From Microbacterium schleiferi (GTDB taxonomy: Bacteria; Actinomycetota; Actinomycetes; Actinomycetales; Microbacteriaceae), in the NCBI RefSeq assembly GCF_015565955.1, contig NZ_CP064760.1, positions 2,852,001 to 2,916,000 on the forward strand: a DNA stretch of 64,000 nt, written 5' to 3'. Position 1 is the first letter of the stretch; each line of letters begins with the position of its first letter. A program made the translations under genes and the position numbers. The notes beneath the pieces were generated by a model, which had not been told where the DNA came from, did not search any database, and saw only the letters and a program-made list of their open reading frames with translations. Shown piece after piece: positions 9,356 to 29,874 of the stretch.

Positions 9356-10969
9356 CTAGGAGAGGGCGGTGACGGCGGCTCGCTCGGCGGCGAGGCCTGC
9401 GCGATAGCGGTCGAGGTAGGAGGCGTACCCGGCGACCTCGGCAGGGTCGGGTTCGACGGTGGCGAACTCCGCGTCGGCGAAGACGACGGCTTCGAGATAC
9501 GCGGCCAGCGAAGCATCGGTCTGCCCCGCGTGGCGGGCTGCGGTGTAGGCGGCCAGAACAGCGATCCCCCATGCGCCGCCCTCGGAGGCGTGGCGCTCCA
9601 CCGACACGGCGACGTCGAGGGCAGAGGAGAGCACGCGCTGGGCGACGCCAGCGGTGCGGAAGATGCCGCCGTGTGCCAGCATCCGGTCGACTTCGACGCC
9701 CTCATCGCCGAGCACCTTCATGCCCAGGCTCAGCGTCGCGAACACCCCCGCCAGCTGCGAGCGCAGAAGGTTCGCGAGGGTCAGCTGGCTGTCGGGCGTC
9801 CGGATGACCATCGGTCGCCCCTCATCGAGCCCGGCGATCGGCTCACCCGAGAGCTGGTTGTACGAGAGGATGCCACCGGCATCAGCGTCGGCAGTGAGAG
9901 CCTCGGCGAACAGGGTCTCGTACACCGAATCCGGGGGAAGCGGTGAGCCGATGAGATCGGCGAAGCGCTGGAAGACTGCCACCCAGGCGGCAAGTTCCGA
10001 GGCCCCGTTGTTGCAGTGCACCATCGCGACGGGATCGCCCGCAGGGGTCGTGACGATATCGAGTTCATCGTGCGCAGCACCCAGGGCTCGCTCGAGCACA
10101 ACCATCGCGAAGATGCTCGTGCCCGCGCTGACATTGCCGGTGCGCGGAGCGACAGCGTTCGTGGCCACCATGCCGGTACCCGCGTCGCCTTCGGGAGGGC
10201 AGAACAGCGCGCCAGGCTTGAGCACGCCGGACGGATCGAGGAGAGCCGCCCCGTCGGCGGTGAGCTCCCCAGCGTCGGCCCCGGCCGACAGCACGGCGGG
10301 GAGCACCTCGAGGAGGGGACGCGGTGCGGCATCCGCCGCGAGGGCATCGAAGCGTGCGACGAGGTCGGCGTCGTAGCTACCGGTGGCGGGATCGATCGGG
10401 AACATGCCCGACGCATCGCCGACACCGAGAACCCGCTGACCGGTCAGGGCCGTGTGGACGAAGCCGGCAAGCGTCGTGAGGTGGTGGACCTCGCGGACGT
10501 GTGGTTCGGCATCCAGCATCGCCTGCCGGTAGTGCGCGATCGACCAGCGCAGCGGAATGTTCACCCCGAACAGATCGCTGAGCTCGGCAGCGGCAGCACC
10601 GGTCGTGGTGTTGCGCCACGTCCGGAAGGGCACCAGCAGCTCGCCCTGTGCGTCGAAGGCCAAGTATCCGTGCATCATGGCCGAGATGCCGATGCCGGTG
10701 ACGGACTCGATGGCGATCCCGTACGCGTGCCGCACCCGGATGCCGAGAGCCGCGTAGGCGGCCTGGATACCCGACCACACCTCGTCGAGCGGGTAGGTCC
10801 ACATCCGATCGACGAAGCTGTTCTCCCACTCGTGACTACCGACAGCGAGCACGTGTCCGTCCTCGGCGACCAGGCACGCCTTGATGCGGGTCGAACCGAG
10901 CTCGATCCCGAGGCTCGCCCGCCCCGAGGTGATCGCCTCGCGGCCTTCGTCAGTGCTCAGGGCGCTCAT
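9356..10969 (-). CDS. araB: FGGY-family carbohydrate kinase, probable L-ribulokinase
   Basis: The 537-residue protein phosphorylates a sugar, here most likely L-ribulose to L-ribulose 5-phosphate. The ATPase core is visible as [16 protein letters not shown] near 18-33, [11 protein letters not shown] in the middle and HGGIFRT in the C-terminal lobe. It resembles the longer kinases often labelled xylulokinase in actinobacterial and clostridial arabinose operons rather than the E. coli-type AraB. The start overlaps the araD stop in ATGA. Its place between araD and araA is the main reason for the ribulokinase call. Confidence 0.87.
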
Positions 10970-11661
10970 CGGCGATCATCCGTCGACTGGCCGTACACGT
11001 TCTGGTAGCGGTTGTAGAGGCTGTCGATTGCCTCCTGCGGAATCGGGATGAGCGGCCCCGCCTGCCGCGCGATATGCACCGTGCGTGCGACGTCTTCGAG
11101 CATGACGGCGGCCTTGACGGCATCCTTCGCGCTCGAGCCGATCGTGAACGGCCCGTGGTTCTGCATCAGTAGGCCGCGGGAGCGGTGATCGCGCAGGGTC
11201 TCGACGATGCCCCGGCCGATCGAGTCGTCGCCGATGATCGCGAACGGGCCCACGGGGATGGGGCCGCCGAACTCGTCGGCCATCGCCGTGATGACGCAGG
11301 GGATCTCTTCGCCGCGCGCCGACCACGCGACGGCGTAGGTCGAGTGTGTGTGGACGACTCCGCCGACGTCGGGCATGTGGCGGTAGACGTACGCGTGCGC
11401 TGCCGTATCGCTGGAGGGCGACCTGTCGCTGCCCTCGCTACCAGGCACCACGGTGCCGTCGAGGTCGCAGAGGATCATGTTCTCGGGGGCGAGATCGTCG
11501 TACGAGACCCCCGAGGGTTTGATGACGAACAGGTCGGCGCCGGGAACCCGGCCCGACACGTTGCCGCCGGTCCAGACGATCAAGCCGTAACGGACCAGTT
11601 CGGAGTGCAGCTGGGCGACATCGGCGCGGACCCGCGCGATGGCATCCTCGAGTTCGGTCAT
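10966..11661 (-). CDS. araD: L-ribulose-5-phosphate 4-epimerase
   Basis: This 231-residue class II aldolase-fold enzyme makes D-xylulose 5-phosphate for the pentose phosphate pathway. WTGGNVSGR near 31, the metal-binding VHTHST and the QNHGPF motif supply the family zinc histidines. KPSGVSYDDL is the phosphate-binding region. The ATG at 11661 has GGAAGGA upstream; the open frame extends to 11706 without one. It is the first gene of the operon, 64 bases downstream of the operator at 11726-11739. Confidence 0.95.
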   Translation of the reverse strand: MTELEDAIARVRADVAQLHSELVRYGLIVWTGGNVSGRVPGADLFVIKPSGVSYDDLAPENMILCDLDGTVVPGSEGSDRSPSSDTAAHAYVYRHMPDVGGVVHTHSTYAVAWSARGEEIPCVITAMADEFGGPIPVGPFAIIGDDSIGRGIVETLRDHRSRGLLMQNHGPFTIGSSAKDAVKAAVMLEDVARTVHIARQAGPLIPIPQEAIDSLYNRYQNVYGQSTDDRR

Positions 11662-11725
11662 CGATGATTCCTTCCGAGACACCCTCGTCGCCGCGCTTGT
11701 CTGCACCGACCGGGCACGCCTCGAA

Positions 11726-11739
11726 TGTTACCGGTAACA
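11726..11739. promoter_or_regulatory. LacI-type operator of the arabinose operon
   Basis: TGTTACCGGTAACA is a perfect 14-base palindrome with the central CG of LacI-family sites. It stands 65 bases upstream of araD, between araD and the 3' end of the LacI-type gene, so that gene's product is the obvious candidate ligand-responsive repressor. Confidence 0.82.
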
Positions 11740-11786
11740 CTTCGGATTCGCCACCTGGGTGGCTTGGGGAGGATCAGCGCACGGCC

Positions 11787-12794
11787 TCAGCGCGAGAGGG
11801 GAGCGCTCGAGGCGCGAACCATCAGCTGCGGCGGGGCGGCCGGCGCTGACGCCTCACCGGAAGCCACCTCACCCAGAACCTCGGCGACACAGCGACGGGC
11901 GTCGCCGAGAACGTCGACGCGCACACTCGTGAGCGCGGGCGCATAGAACGCAGCATCCGGATTGTCATCGAAGCCCACAACGCTCAGGTCGTCGGGAACA
12001 CGGATGCCGTTCTCAGCGAGCCCCGCCATCAGACCCAGCGCCATCTGATCGTTCGCTGCCAGGATTGCCGTCAGCTCCCCCACCCGCACCGCTTCGGCGA
12101 CCTCGGGCGCCAGCGCTGCGCCAGAGCGAGCCGACCAGTCTCCCCGCCACTGGTGCACCACGGAGAGTCCCGCGGCGTCGAGCGCGGCAGCGGTCCCCTG
12201 CGCGCGCGCTGCATCTTCAAGCCAATCGACCGGCCCGCCGAGGCGTGCGATCTGCCGGTGCCCCAGCTCGACCACGTGCGCCGTCGCCAACGCCGCGCCC
12301 TCGCGTTGCGCGCGCGCCCCGTCATCAGCGTGGAGCGCGGCAACCGGGACCCCCAGCTCTCGTTCGCGCAGCACCGACACCATCCGCGCGTGCGGAGCGA
12401 CGAGCACGAGCCCGTCGATGCCCTGGGCGAGGACGTGAGCGATCGCGCCGTCGATCGCGGCCGGATCGCCGGCGTCCGCGTACGCCGTAGCGATCCACAG
12501 GCCCGCCTCCCGTGCGGCTTCGGCGAGCGCGGCGATTCCCACCGTCGGGCCGTACAGTGTGGCATCCGTGGCGATGACCCCGATGGTGCGCGTGGATGCC
12601 GTTCCCAGCGCGCGTGCGGCGTTGTTGACGCGGTAATCGAGCGCACGCATCGCCTCGACCACCCGCGTCCGCGTCTCGGGACGGATGTTCGGGTAGTTGT
12701 TGATGACCCGGGAGACCGTCTGGGTCGAGACCCCGGCCAAGCGGGCGACCTCCCGAACACCGGCCGGTCGGGCCGGACGGGTGACATCGCTCAT
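11787..12794 (-). CDS. LacI family transcriptional regulator, probable arabinose repressor
   Basis: The 335-residue protein has an N-terminal LacI helix-turn-helix at about 12-60 (VREVARLAGVSTQTVSRVIN) and the hinge region YRVNNAARALG. A periplasmic-binding-like sensor domain follows with TIGVIATDATLYGP, ILAANDQMALGLM and VVGFDDNPDA. It is transcribed in the same direction as, and just upstream of, araDBA, and likely binds the palindrome at 11726-11739. GAGGG precedes the ATG at 12794. Specificity for arabinose is inferred from position. Confidence 0.9.
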   Translation of the reverse strand: MSDVTRPARPAGVREVARLAGVSTQTVSRVINNYPNIRPETRTRVVEAMRALDYRVNNAARALGTASTRTIGVIATDATLYGPTVGIAALAEAAREAGLWIATAYADAGDPAAIDGAIAHVLAQGIDGLVLVAPHARMVSVLRERELGVPVAALHADDGARAQREGAALATAHVVELGHRQIARLGGPVDWLEDAARAQGTAAALDAAGLSVVHQWRGDWSARSGAALAPEVAEAVRVGELTAILAANDQMALGLMAGLAENGIRVPDDLSVVGFDDNPDAAFYAPALTSVRVDVLGDARRCVAEVLGEVASGEASAPAAPPQLMVRASSAPLSR

Positions 12795-22014: not shown

Positions 22015-22851
22015 ATGCATCCGGCCCTGAGCGACCACGCGCGCCCGAAACGGGCAGTGTTCTTCATCTCGGATAGCACCGGCATCACCGCCGAAACCCT
22101 GGGCAACGCCCTCCTGGCGAACTTCCCCGGCTTCCGGTTCGAGCGTCACACGATTCCCTTCATCGACACCGCCGAAGCCGCTACCGCGGTGGTGCAGACG
22201 ATCACCGCCGCGGATGCCGCGGGCCTCGCGCCCATCGTCTTCTCGACCATGAAGAACGCCGCTGTCGGGCGTGTGCTCGACACGGCACCGGCGCCACGCA
22301 TCGACTTGCTCGGCGGCCACCTCACCGAACTCGAGCAAACACTCGGCACGACGGCATCCGAGCAGCTGGGGCAGTTCCACACCGTCGGCGACACCGAGGC
22401 CTACTTCGCCCGCATGCGCGCCGTCGAGTACGCCATCGAGCACGACGACGGTCAGAGTTCGCGGGCCTTGGAGTTCGCCGACGTCATCATCATCGCGCCC
22501 TCGCGCTGCGGCAAGACCCCGACGACGATGTATCTCGCGCTGCAGTACGGCCTCTTGGTCGCCAATTACCCCCTCACCGACGAAGACTTCCCCACCGACG
22601 GTCTCCCCCGACTGGTCGCCCCCTACGCCGACCGCTGCTACGGGCTCACCACGACCCCCCTCCGGCTGAGTCAGGTGCGCCACGAGCGGCGACCGGACTC
22701 CCGCTACGCGAGCCTCGCGCAGTGCACTCTCGAGCTGCGTCGCGCCGAAGAGCTGTACCGGCGCACCCGGGTCCCGTTCCTGAATTCCTCGACCAAGAGC
22801 GTCGAAGAGATGTCGGCCATCATCCTGCAGACCCTGAAGCTTCGCGCCTGA
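22015..22851 (+). CDS. PEP synthase regulatory protein (DUF299 bifunctional kinase/pyrophosphorylase)
   Basis: The 278-residue DUF299 protein phosphorylates PEP synthase on a Thr using ADP, inactivating it, and reverses this by phosphorolysis. Key segments are [18 protein letters not shown] near 16, IVFSTMKN and the P-loop [19 protein letters not shown] near 160, then ANYPL. The C-terminal NSSTKSVEE is also typical. It ends 38 bases before the PEP synthase gene, which makes the target clear: the PEP synthase, as opposed to a pyruvate, phosphate dikinase. Confidence 0.93.
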
Positions 22852-22889
22852 CCATCCGTCACGCCCCGCCCCCTCACAAAGGAGTACCC

Positions 22890-25286
22890 ATGAAGAACGT
22901 CCTCTGGTTCGACGAGATCGGCATGAGCGACCTACCCGCGGTCGGCGGCAAGAACGCCTCGCTCGGCGAGATGGTTTCGCACCTGTCCGCGCTGGGCGTG
23001 CGGGTTCCCGGCGGGTTCGCCACCACCGCCGAGGCCTATCGGCGCTTCCTCGACCACGACGGCCTCGGGGACCAGATCGCCGCGCTCGTTCGCGACCTCG
23101 ATACGGACGACGTTGCCGAACTGACGCGCATCGGCGGCGAGATCCGCGCCCGCATCGAGCGGCATCCGCTGCCCGCAGACCTCGAGCGCGACATCCGCGC
23201 CGCCTACGACCGCCTGCTGCAGGACGATGTCGAGCCGGATGCTGCCACCTGGGCGGTCCGCTCGTCCGCGACCGCGGAGGACCTGCCCGACGCTTCCTTC
23301 GCGGGGCAGCAGGAGACGTTCCTGAACATCGGCGGGATCGAGAACATCCTCACCGCGATCCGCCGAGTCTTCGCCTCGCTCTACAACGACCGCGCGATTG
23401 CCTACCGCGTTCACCAGGGTTTCGACCACACGGAGGTTGCGCTGTCGGCCGGTGTGCAGCGCATGGTGCGCTCGGACGTCGGCGCCGCGGGCGTCATGTT
23501 CACCGTCGACACCGAGTCGGGGTTCGATCAGGCAGTGTTCATCACGAGTTCCTACGGCCTCGGCGAAGCTGTCGTGCAGGGCGCCGTCAACCCCGACGAG
23601 TTCTACGTTTCCAAGCCGGCTCTCCGCGCCGGGCGCCCGGCGGTCCTCAAGCGCTCCGTGGGCGAGAAGGCGATCGCGATGCGGTACACCGATAGCCGCG
23701 AGGCCGGTGCCAGCACCGCCTTCGTCGATGTGCCGCCGGCCGACCGCATCCGGTTCTCGCTCACGGATGCGGAGCTCGAAGAGCTTGCCCGCCAGGCCCT
23801 CGTCATCGAAGAGCACTACGGCCGCGCAATGGACATCGAGTGGGGCAAAGACGGTGTCGATGGACGCTTGTACATCCTGCAGGCCCGACCCGAGACCGTC
23901 GTCTCGCGGGCATCGGCGAATGTGATCCGTCGATTCCGGCTCCACGAACGCGGAACAGTCCTCGCCGCCGGCCGAGCGATCGGGCAGCGCATCGGGGCCG
24001 GCCCCGTACGGGTTCTCCGCGACATCGCCGAGATGGGGTCCTTCCGCCCCGGCGACGTGCTCGTCGCGGACATGACCGATCCCGACTGGGAGCCGATCAT
24101 GAAGAGGGCGTCAGCGATCGTGACCAACCGCGGCGGGAGAACCTGCCACGCGGCGATCATTGCGCGCGAGCTCGGCATCCCCGCTGTTGTCGGCGCCGGC
24201 GACGCGACGCGCGTGCTCCAGGAGGGGCAGGACGTGACGGTTTCCTGCGCCGAGGGCGACACGGGCTTCGTCTATGAGGGTGCGCTCGAGTTCGCCGAAG
24301 AGGAGACGCACCTCGATCGGATGCCCGAGCTTCCCGTCAAGATCATGATGAACGTCGGCACCCCCGACCAGGCGTTCTCGTTCTCGCGGCTCCCTCACCG
24401 CGGCGTCGGTCTCGCGCGGCTCGAGTTCATCATCAACCGCCAGATCGGCATCCATCCCCGCGCCCTGCTGGAGCAGGACCTTCCCGCCGGGCTGCGGACC
24501 GAGATCGACGAGCGGGTCGCGGCCTATCCGTCGCCGCGGGACTTCTTCGTGCAGCGCGTGGCCGAAGGCATCTCGATGATTGCGGCGGCCTTCGCCCCCG
24601 AGCCGGTGATCGTACGGATGAGTGACTTCAAGTCCAACGAGTACGCAAACCTCATCGGTGGGGAGATTTACGAACCCCACGAAGAGAACCCGATGATCGG
24701 CTACCGGGGCGCCTCGCGCTACATCTCCCCCGACTTCCGCGCGTGCTTCGACATGGAGTGCGAAGCCCTGCGGTACGTCCGCGACGAGATGGGATTCACG
24801 AACGTCCAGGTCATGATCCCGTTCGTGCGGACCGTCGGCGAGGGGCACGCTGTCGTCGAGATGCTCGCCGAGAACGGCCTGCGCCGCGGCGTCAACGACC
24901 TCAAGGTCATCATGATGTGTGAGCTGCCCACGAACGCTCTTCTCGCCGACCAGTACCTGGAGTTCTTCGATGGCTTCTCGATCGGCTCGAACGACATGAC
25001 GCAGCTCACCCTGGGCCTCGACCGCGACAGCGCGCTCGTCGCGAACACCTTCGACGAGCGCGATCCTGCCGTGTTGCAGCTCATGTCGATGGCGATCCAG
25101 GCGTGCCGCGCACAGGGCAAATACGTGGGGATCTGCGGTCAGGGACCGAGCGATCATCCGGACCTTGCCGAGTGGCTGCTCGAGCAGGGCGTGGAGTCGA
25201 TCTCGCTGAACCCCGACACGGTCGTCGAGACCTGGATGCGGTTGGCCGCAGAAGCGCCCACGAACACCTCGACCGTCACTCCGTAA
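22890..25286 (+). CDS. ppsA: Phosphoenolpyruvate synthase
   Basis: It makes PEP from pyruvate and ATP, feeding gluconeogenesis. The 798-residue protein has an ATP-grasp-like domain at 1-350 ([31 protein letters not shown]). The swivelling phospho-histidine domain has [14 protein letters not shown] with His420. The C-terminal PEP/pyruvate barrel ends with [12 protein letters not shown] and the expected catalytic Cys749. AAAGGAG precedes the ATG by 8 bases. Phosphorylation by the upstream DUF299 protein would fall on the Thr two residues before His420 (T-C-H). Confidence 0.97.
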
Positions 25287-25376: not shown

Positions 25377-25547
25377 GTGGGACTCGACGACAAGATCAAG
25401 AACTCGGCAGAAGAACTCAAGGGCAAGGCCAAGGAAGGTGTCGGCGACGCCACCGACAACGAGGAGCTCGAGGCAGAGGGCAAGGCCGACCAGGCCAAGG
25501 CCGACCTCAAGCAGGCTGGCGAGAAGACGAAGGACGCACTGTCCTGA
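25377..25547 (+). CDS. CsbD family stress protein
   Basis: A 56-residue, highly charged, disordered-looking protein of Lys, Glu, Ala and Asp. LDDKIKNSAEELKGKAKEGVG and DQAKADLKQAGEKTKDAL are the CsbD signature repeats. The GTG at 25377 is preceded by AGAGGAG; the longer ATG frame at 25341 is not. CsbD-like proteins accumulate under general stress but have no known biochemical activity. It is its own transcript, ending in the strong hairpin directly after it. Confidence 0.9.
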   Translation: MGLDDKIKNSAEELKGKAKEGVGDATDNEELEAEGKADQAKADLKQAGEKTKDALS

Positions 25548-25560
25548 CGCTGCCGCGATC

Positions 25561-25600
25561 AACCGATGGGGCCTGTCCACGCGGACAGGCCCCATCGGTT
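25561..25600 (+). terminator. Strong terminator after csbD
   Basis: AACCGATGGGGCCTGTCC pairs perfectly over 18 bases with its inverted copy at 25583-25600 across the four-base loop ACGC. The next gene's GTG start follows with no gap, so that gene either begins downstream of this point or is reached by read-through. Confidence 0.88.
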
Positions 25601-26635
25601 GTGTCACTTCGCCCCGACCCGGCCGCCGCGAGCGTATCCGTGCGCGGCGCCGTCAGTGCGGCAGCCGAGATCGACGGGTTCGGCACGGACGTGGATCCGA
25701 CCCTCGCCTGGTGCGTGGCGGTCGGAGAGTGGGCGCCGCCGGTCGGCGAGGGGCGGACGACCGAACTCTGGGAACTCCTCGCTTCGACCGCCGCGGTCGA
25801 CGTCGCCGCCGCGCGCATCCTGGAACCGCACCTGGACGCGCTGACGATTCTGGCGCAAGCTGAGCGGTCTGAGCTCCGCAGCCCGCATGACACCTGGGGA
25901 GTCTTCGCCGCCGAAAGCCCCGACCACCGCCTGCGTGCTGAGCAATCGCGCACCGGATGGAGGCTTCGAGGCACCAAGCCGTGGTGCTCGCTCGCGTCAC
26001 ACCTCTCCCGGGCTCTCGTCACGGCAACGCTGGATGACGGGCGGCGCCGCCTGTTCGCTGTCGACCTCCGCGCGGACGGCGTTCGTCCCCATGCGGGGCC
26101 GTGGGCGGCACGCGGGCTCGCGCAGGTCGTGAGTGCGCCCGTCGACTTCGATGACGCCCCTGGAGAGCCGGTCGGCGAGGCAGGCTGGTACCTGGAGCGG
26201 CCGGGGTTTGCCTGGGGCGGGATGTCGGTCGCGGCCTGCTGGTGGGGCGCGGCGACCAGGATCGCGCAGCGACTGCTGGCACCGGCGCAGTCGGCGAACG
26301 CCGACCAGCTCTCGCTCGTCCACCTCGGAAAGGTCGACACCGCACTCTGGTCGGCGCGCGCCGTGCTCGCTGAAGCTGCGGACCTCGTGGATGACGGGCG
26401 GTCGAGGCGGGTAGGCGAGCGTGCGGTGAGTGAACGCCTGCGCGCCGTCGTGGCGGATGCCGCTACGCTCACCCTTGCCGAAGCCGCCGCGGCGCTGGGC
26501 CCCGGTCCCCTGACCCGTGACGAGCAGTTTGCCCGCAACAGCGCCGACCTCCACCTCTACCTGCAGCAACACCATGGGCTCCGCGATGTGGCGCGCATCG
26601 GTCGCGAGGCCGCCCGACAGGGCGCCGCGTGGTGA
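25601..26635 (+). CDS. Acyl-CoA dehydrogenase-like flavoprotein
   Basis: This 344-residue protein has the acyl-CoA dehydrogenase layout: an N-terminal helical domain, a middle beta domain (WGVFAAESPDHRL, GTKPWCSLASHLSRALVTA), and a C-terminal four-helix domain (RLLAPAQSANADQLSLVHLGKVD). It is shorter than the 380-residue norm, and I cannot pick out a catalytic Glu. The GTG at 25601 directly follows a terminator and has no ribosome binding site, so the true start may be a later GTG such as that near 25639. Its stop overlaps the next start in GTGA, tying it to the PIG-L/glycosyltransferase genes. The substrate is unknown. Confidence 0.78.
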   Translation: MSLRPDPAAASVSVRGAVSAAAEIDGFGTDVDPTLAWCVAVGEWAPPVGEGRTTELWELLASTAAVDVAAARILEPHLDALTILAQAERSELRSPHDTWGVFAAESPDHRLRAEQSRTGWRLRGTKPWCSLASHLSRALVTATLDDGRRRLFAVDLRADGVRPHAGPWAARGLAQVVSAPVDFDDAPGEPVGEAGWYLERPGFAWGGMSVAACWWGAATRIAQRLLAPAQSANADQLSLVHLGKVDTALWSARAVLAEAADLVDDGRSRRVGERAVSERLRAVVADAATLTLAEAAAALGPGPLTRDEQFARNSADLHLYLQQHHGLRDVARIGREAARQGAAW

Positions 26636-27996
26636 GCTTCAGCCACCTCGAGGAGGGCACGCCCGAGGAGCGGTGGCTCGCCGACCCGCGTCTGCACTCC
26701 ACGCCACTGGTGGAGCCCCTCCCCGCCGACCTCATCGTCGTCGCCGCCCACCCCGACGATGAAACACTCGGCGCCGGGGGTATCATGCGCCGCGTCGCCA
26801 GCCAAGGCGGGCGCGTGAGCGTCATCATCGCCAGCGATGGTGAGGCGTCGCATCCTGGTTCTCCCACCCACACCCCCGAGGCGCTCCGCGCTCGGCGGCG
26901 GCTCGAGGTCATCGACGCGCTCTCCGTTCTGGCGCCGGCCGCGCGCGTGCAGTTCCTGTCGATACCCGATGGCAAGCTCGACGCACACGCGGGTCTCGTC
27001 GAAGCGGCCGTCGCCGCGGTCCTCAATGCGACGGATGCCGCCCCCACACGCACGCTCGTGGTCGCCCCCTGGTCAGGAGATGGCCATCGCGATCACCGGG
27101 CGGCAGCCCGCGCCGTGAGCAGTGCCGCCTCACCCCGCGGCGTGCGACATCTCGGATACCCGATCTGGCTGTGGCACTGGGCAGATCCCGAGGTCGTTCC
27201 CTGGGATCGGGCGCTCGCTGTGCCGCTGAGCGAGGACGAGCTGACGCATAAGGCCGCCGCCCTGCGCGCGCATTCGTCTCAGGTCGAGGCCCTCTCCAGC
27301 GGGACGGGCGACGAGGCCATCGTTCCGCCGCGACTTCTCGCTCACTTCACCCGCGACCGCGAGATCTTCCTCTCGGAAGAGCCAGAGGACTCCGCGACAC
27401 TGCGGGCGGCGTTCTTCGAGGACTTCTACGCCCGCCATGACGACCCCTGGGGATTCGAAACGCGATGGTACGAGGAACGCAAACGCGGCATCCTCCTTGC
27501 TGCCCTGCCGACCCGGCGCCTGGGCAGCGTTCTTGAGATCGGATGCGCCACGGGGCTGCTGACTGCACCGCTAGCTGCTCGATCCGACCGGGTCGTCGCC
27601 GTGGATGCATCAGCCGCTGCCGTTGATCGCGCCCGGCACCGGCTGGCACCGGCCGACCACGTCACCGTCTCACGCGCCCATGTGCCCGGGGAGTGGCCCA
27701 CGGGGGACTTCGACGCTGTCGTCCTCTCCGAGGTCGGCTACTACTTCGACCCGGCCGACCTGGAAACGCTCATCGGTCGAATCGATGGGGCGCTCGCCGA
27801 CGACGGCATCCTCGTGGCATGCCACTGGCGGCATCCGGTGGCGGAGTACCCGTCAACCGGCGATCGCGTCCACCACACGTTGCGGCGCGTTCCCGGATGG
27901 CGCACGATCGCCCTCCACGAGGAGGACGACTTCGTGCTCGAGATCTTCGGCCGCGCGGATTCCGAGTCGGTGGCCGCACGGGAGGGTTTGGTGTGA
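26632..27996 (+). CDS. Fusion of PIG-L deacetylase and SAM-dependent methyltransferase
   Basis: The N-terminal half (about 1-220) is a LmbE/PIG-L zinc deacetylase, with the metal motif AAHPDDETLGAGG near 38 and the later GDGHRDHRA. These enzymes remove N-acetyl from amino sugars. The C-terminal half (about 255-454) is a class I methyltransferase of NodS type, with DPWGFETRWYEERKR, the SAM loop VLEIGCATGLLTAPL and VVAVDASAAAV. NodS N-methylates the amine freed by a deacetylase. One chain thus offers deacetylation then N-methylation of a sugar. It overlaps its neighbours at both ends by GTGA. The GTG at 26629 is an alternative start. Confidence 0.9.
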   Translation: MSFSHLEEGTPEERWLADPRLHSTPLVEPLPADLIVVAAHPDDETLGAGGIMRRVASQGGRVSVIIASDGEASHPGSPTHTPEALRARRRLEVIDALSVLAPAARVQFLSIPDGKLDAHAGLVEAAVAAVLNATDAAPTRTLVVAPWSGDGHRDHRAAARAVSSAASPRGVRHLGYPIWLWHWADPEVVPWDRALAVPLSEDELTHKAAALRAHSSQVEALSSGTGDEAIVPPRLLAHFTRDREIFLSEEPEDSATLRAAFFEDFYARHDDPWGFETRWYEERKRGILLAALPTRRLGSVLEIGCATGLLTAPLAARSDRVVAVDASAAAVDRARHRLAPADHVTVSRAHVPGEWPTGDFDAVVLSEVGYYFDPADLETLIGRIDGALADDGILVACHWRHPVAEYPSTGDRVHHTLRRVPGWRTIALHEEDDFVLEIFGRADSESVAAREGLV

Positions 27997-28709
27997 TCGG
28001 CTCCAGCATCAGGGCGCTTGCCGTCGTCGTCCCCGTCCACAACGAGGAGCAGCTCCTTTCCCGGTGCCTGCACTCCGTGGAAGCCGCCGTCTCGCGCGTC
28101 CGGGTACCGTGCGCGGTGTTCGTTGTCATCGACGCGAGCACTGACGGGTCGGCGTCAGTCGCGCGGCAGCATCCGTTCCCCGTCGTCGAAATCAAGGCGG
28201 GATCTGTCGGCGTTGCCCGATCTGTCGGGGTCGCCGCTGCGCTCAGAAGCCTCGCGCCTGCCATAGACCGGCGGACCTGGATCGCCAACACCGACGCCGA
28301 TTCAGTCGTGCCAGCGAACTGGCTCACGGTGCAGCTCGGCCTTGCTCGCGAGGGCGCTGATCTCGTCATCGGTACCGTTCGGCCAGACTTCGCCGATCTC
28401 ACCCCGCAGCACCGGGAGATGTGGCTCGACACGCACACGCGCGGTAAGCCCAACGGACATGTGCACGGAGCGAACCTCGGCCTGCGGGCGGATGTCTATC
28501 GTGCCGCGGGTGGCTTCAGCGACGCCCCGGAACACGAAGACGTGATGCTGGTCGACCGCTGCCGCGCGTCAGGCGCGCACCTCGTCGCCAGCGATGCGGC
28601 CGAAGTCCTCACCTCGGGTCGATTCGTCGGACGCACTCCCGGCGGCTATGCGGCGTACCTCCGAGACCAGCATCGCGCTCTGACCTCGGCCGCCCCCGAG
28701 CCGGTCTAG
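27993..28709 (+). CDS. Family 2-type glycosyltransferase
   Basis: The 238-residue protein has a GT-A fold with ALAVVVPVHNEEQLLSRCL at the start, IDASTDGSASVA and the metal-binding-like ANTDADSVVPANWL near 92-105. HGANLGLRADVYRAAGGF follows, with the acceptor-side EHEDVMLVDR. There is no membrane segment, so it acts in the cytosol or peripherally. It begins in the stop codon of the PIG-L/methyltransferase gene (GTGA) and ends overlapping the convergent aminotransferase gene. Donor and acceptor are unknown; with its partners it likely builds a modified amino sugar conjugate. Confidence 0.87.
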   Translation: MIGSSIRALAVVVPVHNEEQLLSRCLHSVEAAVSRVRVPCAVFVVIDASTDGSASVARQHPFPVVEIKAGSVGVARSVGVAAALRSLAPAIDRRTWIANTDADSVVPANWLTVQLGLAREGADLVIGTVRPDFADLTPQHREMWLDTHTRGKPNGHVHGANLGLRADVYRAAGGFSDAPEHEDVMLVDRCRASGAHLVASDAAEVLTSGRFVGRTPGGYAAYLRDQHRALTSAAPEPV

Positions 28710-29874
28710 CGCGTCGGCACCGCCGCGGCGAGCCGGCGAACGATCTCCTCGAGCACGGGCGCGGGGGTCGCGAAGATGAGCCGCGCGAACCCGGCGCCGG
28801 CCTGGCCGCACATCGTTCCCTCCGTGAGGGTGACGGAGGCTTCTCGCGCGAAGTACTCGGCCGGCAGGTCGTCGATACCGGCGCCGCGGAAATCGACCCA
28901 CCCGACGTAGGTGCCCTCGGGTTTCGGCATCCACGCCCCGGCAGGTGCTCCGCGAGGAGTGAAAGGAGCCGGTCGCGGTTCCCTTCGAGGTAGGGCACGA
29001 GATCGGCAAGCCACGCGTCGCCGCTGCGGAAGGCGACAGCGTTGGCGATAGCACCGAGGTTGCTGGTGCCGTGGCCCGAGAACCGGCCGATCCGCTCCCA
29101 CGTCTCGCGATCGCGGTCGCTCGTGAGAACGAGTTCAGCGCACTTCAGGCCGGGGAGGTTCCACGCTTTCGAAGCGCTCATGGCTGTGATCGTGTGCTCG
29201 GCTGCGGCGGGTGTGACCGTCGCGTAGGGGATATGGGTGGCGCCCGAGAAGACCAGCGGCGCCCAGATCTCATCCGAGAAAACCCGCCCACCATTGCGGT
29301 CGACGACCTCGGCGATCCCGAGCAGTTCTTCTTTGGAGAACACGCGGCCGACCGGGTTGTAGGGGTTGCACAGCAGCAGGAGATTCCCGCCCTCATCGAA
29401 CGCCCGCTGCAGCGCGTCGAGGTCGAACTCGTAGCGTCCGTCGCGCACGGCGAGCGGCATCTCGATGACCTCGCGTCCGCGCATCGGCGGCACCATGAGG
29501 AACGGCATATAGGACGGAGTGGGGACGATGATCTTGGATCCCGGCTCCGAGCAGTGCTCCATCGCGAGTTCGAGCCCCATGATGACATCCGGGATGCCCC
29601 ACACGTCGCTGGCCGGCACGCTCCAGCCGTAGCGGCGCTCGAGGAACCCGGCTGTCGCGTCAGACAGGTCCGCGGCGATGCGCTGCGGCATGTACCCGAA
29701 GGCACCCTCATCGACGGCCGCATGGAGGGCGGCGGTAATGGCGGGGTCGACACCGAAATCCATCTCGGCGACGAAGGCGCCGATCGAGCCATCCGTGGCC
29801 GACCATTTCGTCGCGCCCGTGGCGCGAAGCTGCTCGATCGTGATGGCGTCTATGCGCCGGGCGAAGTCGGTCAT
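28706..29874 (-). pseudogene. MalY/PatB-type aminotransferase (cystathionine beta-lyase), frameshifted
   Basis: This is a PLP enzyme of about 390 residues expected to cleave C-S bonds of cystathionine or cysteine conjugates. From the ATG at 29874 (AGGAAGAG upstream) come MDFGVDPAI, VPTPSYMPFL, LCNPYNPVGRVFS, SDEIWAPLVF and the PLP lysine in MSASKAWNLPGLK. The frame breaks at the C run 28936-28939; one more base restores LPGAWMPKPEGTYVGWVDF and TEGTMCGQAG, ending at 28706. Its 3' end overlaps the convergent glycosyltransferase gene. The intact second frame argues for a miscalled base. Confidence 0.88.

Follow-up and report, generated by a model that had tools for sequence, protein, structure and literature searches.

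The described systems closest to the locus considered here are Nod-factor synthesis by NodB, NodS and NodC, the synthesis of mycothiol and bacillithiol, and a group of flavin monooxygenases that have the acyl-CoA dehydrogenase (ACAD) fold. MshB and BshB are PIG-L-family N-deacetylases of N-acetylglucosamine (GlcNAc) conjugates, and MshA and BshA are family 4 glycosyltransferases (GT4). The founder enzyme of the PIG-L family has a glycolipid substrate, and PIG-L enzymes are not homologous to carbohydrate esterase family 4 (CE4) enzymes. Among the monooxygenases, DszC and MsuC are sulfur oxidizers and KijD3-type enzymes act on nucleotide-linked deoxy sugars. We analyzed a 64,000-nucleotide stretch of the 3.30-Mb genome of Microbacterium schleiferi (contig NZ_CP064760.1, positions 2,852,001 to 2,916,000; hereafter the window), in which the plus strand at 25601-28709 carries three genes that by their Pfam matches encode an ACAD-like protein, a fusion of a PIG-L deacetylase with a NodS-type methyltransferase, and a family 2 glycosyltransferase (GT2). 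A first-pass annotation had described three genes with GTGA overlaps at both junctions, and the coordinates and Pfam matches bear this out: the overlaps are of 4 nt each, with start GTG 26632 meeting stop TGA 26633-26635 and start GTG 27993 meeting stop TGA 27994-27996.

We tentatively propose that this operon encodes a compact route by which a small, N-methylated amino-sugar conjugate is made under stress conditions, and give the reading as a whole slightly less than an even chance. In the proposed scheme, the GT2 would take an N-acetylhexosamine or a similar sugar from its nucleotide-linked form and attach it to a small acceptor, the PIG-L domain (or a NodB-like enzyme) would strip the N-acetyl group, the fused NodS-type domain would N-methylate the freed amine, and the ACAD-like flavoprotein would oxidize the product or an intermediate by N- or C-oxygenation or by dehydrogenation. 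Deacetylation followed by methylation is the best-supported part of this putative scheme, by the gene fusion and by a deacetylase swap described below. The sugar donor, the acceptor, the order of sugar transfer and oxidation, and the product are conjectural.

Conservation and order of the gene set

For gene orders we abbreviate the ACAD-like flavoprotein as A, PIG-L as P, the NodS-type methyltransferase as M and the GT2 as G. A profile search of 198 Microbacterium genomes found the ACAD gene in 58, and in a sample of the phylum it was present at E ≤ 1e-20 in 49 of 396 genomes. Gene order was inspected in 23 of the 58 ACAD-positive Microbacterium genomes and at 27 other Actinomycetota loci, chosen non-randomly. 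The conservation by which the first-pass annotation proposed to check its operon is indeed seen, for example in the order A-P-M-G at all 23 Microbacterium loci, the window included. At one of the other 27 loci the ACAD gene is cut off. Of the remaining 26, 22 have all members found on one strand, as A-P-M-G (6 loci), A-M-G (5), G-A-P-M (4) and one locus each of A-M-P-G, P-M-G-A, G-M-P-A, G-P-A-M, M-A-G, A-P-M and A-P; in the other 4 the GT2 is on the opposite strand. Four Actinomycetota genomes (loci L187-L190) have four different orders, with the members still together on one strand.

The set recurs, mostly as four separate genes, in Actinomycetota, Pseudomonadota and Deinococcota. Sets of separate genes, whole or most, occur on plasmids of Acinetobacter, Pandoraea, Bradyrhizobium, Deinococcus, Sulfitobacter, Komagataeibacter, Roseomonas, Roseivivax, Cupriavidus and Comamonas. 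The Roseomonas plasmid record yielded no GT2, PIG-L stands apart from the rest on the Cupriavidus plasmid, and several plasmid records have the GT2 on the opposite strand. A Paraburkholderia plasmid stretch holds the methyltransferase and GT2 only, and in a Deinococcus proteolyticus stretch neither ACAD nor PIG-L was recognizable. On an Acinetobacter soli plasmid (L218) the ACAD gene is unannotated and matches in two pieces, possibly a sign that the copy is broken. At least 570 loci with an ACAD relative came from scanning named genomes. Detailed counts cover the best 80 of these, which lean toward relatives of the Comamonas query and include a few metagenome bins: A-P-M-G at 59, A-P-M at 14, G-A-P-M at 3, A-M-G at 3, and one locus in Pseudomonas anatoliensis (L166) where the ACAD gene lies 5.6 kb away from PIG-L, methyltransferase and GT2. 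No relative turned up in a scan of viral contigs. Gene order and spacing differ between lineages, and the first-pass view that the overlaps set a fixed stoichiometry is not supported. Because the order is permuted while the content is largely constant, these comparisons argue for the set being one functional unit.

Enzymes of the set

The PIG-L domain matches its Pfam family at 89.7 bits, above the cut-off of 28.2. Residues H41, D43, D44, E45, D151, H153, D155 and H156 are kept in 132/132 aligned sequences; we take the AHPDDE and HxDH motifs to hold the metal and catalytic residues of PIG-L/LmbE deacetylases. We compared 24 Rubrobacter-type genomes, 23 from the family of Rubrobacter indicoceani and one from another family. 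In all 24, a CE4 polysaccharide deacetylase is matched on the strand of the ACAD match, at a distance of 92-387 bp from it; in five of them the aligned stretch contains one or more stop codons. PIG-L adjoins the ACAD gene in 0/24, and a PIG-L domain occurs elsewhere in the genome in 9/24. The best NCBIfam match of the R. indicoceani CE4 enzyme is NodB, at 113.4 bits and under the cut-off of 240. Since the two enzyme families share no homology, the presence of CE4 in place of PIG-L suggests that what is kept across the swap is likely the reaction itself, in which an amino sugar is N-deacetylated, and the swap lends independent support to the proposed deacetylation step. In Pseudomonas paraglycinae (L108), a second PIG-L gene (10953-11843; 75.7 bits) directly follows the GT2 gene and is collinear with the quartet.

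The methyltransferase half scores above the PF05401 cut-off. NodS is the best NCBIfam match both for the window protein and for the Pseudomonas protein tested, with the window score (59.7) far from the cut-off of 300 for the NodS equivalog NF041650, and among structures the methyltransferase matches 4isc at 212.5 bits and NodS (3ofj) at 82.9 bits. The GT2 has a Pfam match of 59.6 bits and keeps its DxD in 126/126 aligned sequences; it falls below the cut-offs for mycofactocin MftF (35.4 against 280) and TIGR04283 (45.8 against 182). Fold comparison with a predicted model (VIA-align 2) was rejected as a guide to the GT2 donor because its rows tie.

Both ACAD domains of the flavoprotein score under their curated Pfam cut-offs (PF02770, 24.1 vs 33.3 bits; PF00441, 21.8 vs 22.4). 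Its predicted model (pLDDT 91.4) has the ACAD fold, and DszC ranks first for it in Foldseek; we rejected fold comparison as arbiter of the flavoprotein's chemistry, because dehydrogenases tie with DszC and MsuC. With a 16-member cross-phylum profile, the best matches in the Protein Data Bank are DszC/TdsC (DszC at 76 bits), 5gj7, MsuC, 4m9a and KijD3, and the entries for human SCAD, MCAD and VLCAD rank below these. The Pseudomonas ACAD-like protein matches SfnB weakly (49.6 against a cut-off of 430.9). Of 8,000 candidates that were scored, 3,494 matched the profile at E ≤ 0.001, not all of them necessarily members of the subfamily.

We examined individual residues in an alignment of 143 rows, of which 11 or 12 were gapped at the tested columns and excluded and two pairs were identical. 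The catalytic Glu of acyl-CoA dehydrogenases, which we assume to lie in a C-terminal YEGT-type loop, corresponds to position 324 as located with alignments that stop just short of it; there Glu occurs in 0/132 rows, Ser or His in 114/132 and Asp in 2/132 (11 more rows gapped). The conserved residues are instead H77 (131/131), F203 (131/131), R281 (132/132) and Q323 (131/132). A K-x-W/F-C-S motif aligns, as K-x-W-C-S, to KHFCSGA of DszC, whose functional residues we take to be Ser163, His92 and His391. Ser163 aligns to S130, which is Ser in 129/131 rows. The position of His92 is occupied by R/K72 (131/131) and that of His391 by Q323 (131/132), the latter placement resting on a low-scoring stretch of 7.7 bits. 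A ferredoxin-NAD reductase-like gene lies between methyltransferase and GT2 at all five Rubrobacter-type loci inspected (L192-L196; L194 and L029 are one and the same plasmid) and could supply the flavoprotein with electrons.

From these comparisons we tentatively read the ACAD-like protein as belonging to a separate subfamily of flavin oxidases or monooxygenases, and probably not as a fatty acyl-CoA dehydrogenase. Several results weigh against the first of these readings: a 9-member actinobacterial profile puts 5gj7/5z8t and 2dvl ahead of DszC, the C-terminal domain taken by itself has acyl-CoA dehydrogenases as its closest matches, and Pfam C-terminal matches are to the dehydrogenase domain in 6/16 members and to the type-2 domain in 3/16. 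The first-pass proposal that the operon modifies an acyl part is not supported, given the lack of Glu at the catalytic position, whereas its sequence of sugar transfer, deacetylation and N-methylation is favored by the fusion, the intact PIG-L residues and the NodB-like swap.

Genomic setting and coordinates of the locus

Among the best 80 named loci, 41 are from Pseudomonas, and all 41 have TreY and GlgX (the TreY of P. paraglycinae matches malto-oligosyltrehalose synthase at 1680.8 bits). In each the ACAD gene stands directly 3' of glgX on the same strand, with at most 85 bp between the end of the GlgX match and the ACAD match; an ATGA overlap joins the two genes in P. syringae pv. cilantro (L160). 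At 36/41 loci the genes for PIG-L, methyltransferase and GT2 come next, within 3.5 kb; four loci have no GT2 match, and at L166 the three genes are farther off. An exonuclease/phosphatase-family gene lies downstream in some Pseudomonas; we rejected it as a fifth member, since it occurs at 21/80 named loci. Elsewhere, Comamonas antarctica has the order otsA-ACAD-PIGL-MT-GT2-otsB (MT, methyltransferase), Comamonas sp. JUb58 has otsB-otsA and then the quartet with LigD and Ku matches adjoining, and on an Acinetobacter johnsonii plasmid the quartet is flanked by catalase and otsA/otsB. Catalase occurs in the Sulfitobacter and Cupriavidus records, among others inspected; ferritin-like genes, Ku/LigD and CsbD are likewise present in some of the records inspected. 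Plasmid-group records supplied the reference OtsA, OtsB, KatE, MnCat, ferritin and other proteins, and matches in that group therefore include self-matches.

Judging from this neighborhood only, we infer a role in protection during desiccation, osmotic or oxidative stress. Against this, no trehalose or alpha-glucan reference protein matched at the 23 Microbacterium loci, and the 39 non-Pseudomonas loci among the best 80 have TreY at one, OtsA at one and KatE at three. If the proposed pathway is right, a widespread route to a small molecule has been overlooked beside well-studied trehalose genes, and mutant phenotypes published for trehalose operons may have to be reconsidered, as the effects could extend to the genes of the set. 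The deletions reported in P. syringae DC3000 span PSPTO3125-3130 with glgX last (PMC8982409); by analogy, the set, if located likewise in DC3000, would be outside that deletion.

Features of the locus in the window are given in Table 1. The hairpin in front of the ACAD gene stops one base ahead of GTG 25601, and the next in-frame GTG is at 25640. Because the hairpin abuts the doubtful GTG 25601, the gene probably starts at 25640 instead, giving a protein of 331 aa. Three homologs at 82-83% identity (P0024, P0026 and P0035) are 327-331 aa long; two at 79% identity (P0038 and P0018), of 344 and 366 aa, disagree with the shorter start. A promoter scan gave a single sigma-70-like site, within the PIG-L gene, and a terminator scan reported none by its own rule, the hairpin not being among its results.

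Table 1. Positions in the window of the operon and adjoining elements.
Feature	Position	Strand	Remarks
csbD-like small stress protein gene, 56 aa, GTG start	25377..25547	+	Translation and AGGAG upstream; named by eye
Inverted repeat, perfect 18 bp, 4-nt loop, terminator-like without T tract	25561..25600	.	-38.8 kcal/mol; between csbD and ACAD gene
ACAD-like flavoprotein gene, 344 aa from GTG 25601; 331 aa from GTG 25640 more likely	25601..26635	+	
PIG-L/NodS-type methyltransferase fusion gene	26632..27996	+	Start in open reading frame (ORF) tool one codon earlier, 26629
PIG-L (LmbE-like) deacetylase domain, AHPDDE and DGHRDH motifs	26734..27126	+	Residues 36-166, Pfam
NodS-type S-adenosylmethionine-dependent methyltransferase domain	27439..27831	+	Residues 271-401, PF05401 58.7 bits
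GT2 glycosyltransferase gene, 238 aa, DxD (D101, D103) and ED (E182, D183)	27993..28709	+	

We rejected csbD as an operon member, a homolog being present at only 2/22 other Microbacterium loci. Upstream of csbD, 22015-25286 holds by eye the gene for a regulatory protein of phosphoenolpyruvate synthase and pyruvate phosphate dikinase (PPDK), followed by a PPDK-like gene. On the minus strand at 28706-29874 lies an aminotransferase of MalY/PatB appearance (by eye) that loses its frame after about 313 residues and has its tail in another frame. Its relatives match within open frames of 384-534 aa. This is a broken gene or a sequencing error.

Alternative readings and comparison with known systems

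The flavoprotein might be a KijD3-like amino-sugar N-oxygenase, the product then being an N-methyl-hydroxylamine, a nitrone or a nitroso sugar. The preceding step would yield a free amine, and the broad profile has among its top matches KijD3 (4kcf, 67 bits; we also take 3m9v to be a KijD3 structure) and, at 58 bits, a nitrososynthase (3mxl). However, DszC and MsuC outscore KijD3, the C-terminal profile gives KijD3 just 17 bits, the known enzymes of this kind use nucleotide-linked deoxy sugars, and the plasmid records inspected have no annotated dedicated flavin reductase inside the set; we consider this unlikely. The set might also decorate a lipid or a cell-envelope glycan by placing an N-methyl-hexosamine on a polar lipid, with the ACAD-like protein working on the acyl chain in the way the first-pass annotation had suggested, as its fold, the affinity of its C-terminal domain and the glycolipid substrate of the PIG-L founder would allow. 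Two Deinococcus copies adjoin glf and further glycosyltransferases, and Comamonas antarctica has an acyl-CoA synthetase, a MaoC-like gene, a CoA transferase and a thioesterase within 8 kb. We nevertheless hold lipid decoration to be quite unlikely, given a catalytic Glu that is missing in 132/132 sequences, a broad profile closest to monooxygenases, and inspected stretches in which we saw no acyl-CoA ligase or thioesterase annotated other than at L096 and, for a thioesterase, L028.

Catalase genes as neighbors and a BshB1 match of the PIG-L half (49.6 bits in the window, 49.9 in Pseudomonas) would fit a redox cofactor of the mycothiol or bacillithiol kind, in which PIG-L deacetylates a GlcNAc-acceptor whose amine is then methylated or oxidized and not joined to cysteine. 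Such a cofactor is distinctly improbable, however, with scores far under the cut-offs for BshB1 (182.5) and MshB (224.35), a GT2 here in contrast to the GT4 enzymes MshA and BshA, and, in the stretches inspected, no annotation of a cysteine ligase. Patchy presence within Microbacterium and carriage on plasmids could mean that the genes form no single pathway and are spread jointly by stress islands, with co-location reflecting shared regulation only. That the same activities recur in permuted orders, with two fused here and one replaced by a similarly acting enzyme of unrelated descent, makes this highly improbable. The pathway to a small N-methylated amino-sugar conjugate remains our preferred reading. 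Its furthest extension, a new class of N-methylated and possibly N-oxidized stress protectants built by the deacetylate-then-methylate logic of Nod factors in perhaps hundreds of species, and in some of them made along with trehalose by overlooked genes after glgX in the treYZ operon of many Pseudomonas, is doubtful. If the preferred reading is right, it would carry the Nod-factor logic into a general stress setting and suggest that a subfamily labeled acyl-CoA dehydrogenase, which may be large, is misnamed.

By the cut-offs tested, the set belongs to none of the pathways for Nod factors, mycothiol, bacillithiol and mycofactocin. Enzymes of each kind are already known, and their combination, spread and swap appear undescribed in the literature searched: no description of the set was found in the titles and abstract openings of open-license PubMed Central (PMC) articles. 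The first-pass suggestion of an undescribed small-molecule or glycoconjugate system is supported, with a conserved set and, in that literature, no homolog with an assigned pathway.

The set resembles NodB-NodS-NodC in pairing a deacetylase with a NodS-type methyltransferase and a GT2, and the R. indicoceani deacetylase has NodB as its best match. It differs in NodS and NodB scores far under the equivalog cut-offs given above, in a GT2 of only 238 aa here, in having an ACAD-like flavoprotein in place of the acyltransferase NodA, and in occurring mostly outside rhizobia, often adjoining stress genes; NodA is not annotated in the records inspected, and no search aimed at it was made. With mycothiol and bacillithiol synthesis it has in common a glycosyltransferase and a PIG-L-family N-deacetylase, which in those systems acts on a GlcNAc conjugate, but MshB (25.8) and BshB1 matches stay under their cut-offs, a methyltransferase and a flavoprotein are added here, and the cysteine ligase is lacking from the annotation of the stretches inspected. 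The ACAD-fold flavin monooxygenases DszC, MsuC and SfnB, and KijD3, nitrososynthase and DnmZ, include the top broad-profile matches, and K-x-F-C-S is common to the set and DszC; in contrast to DszC, the H391 position here is a near-invariant Gln and the H92 position Arg or Lys, and a reductase-like gene was seen only in Rubrobacter-type loci, not having been systematically sought elsewhere. The remaining comparison is with the Pseudomonas trehalose/glycogen operon glgA-treZ-malQ-treY-glgX, after whose last gene the ACAD gene comes next at 41/41 loci.

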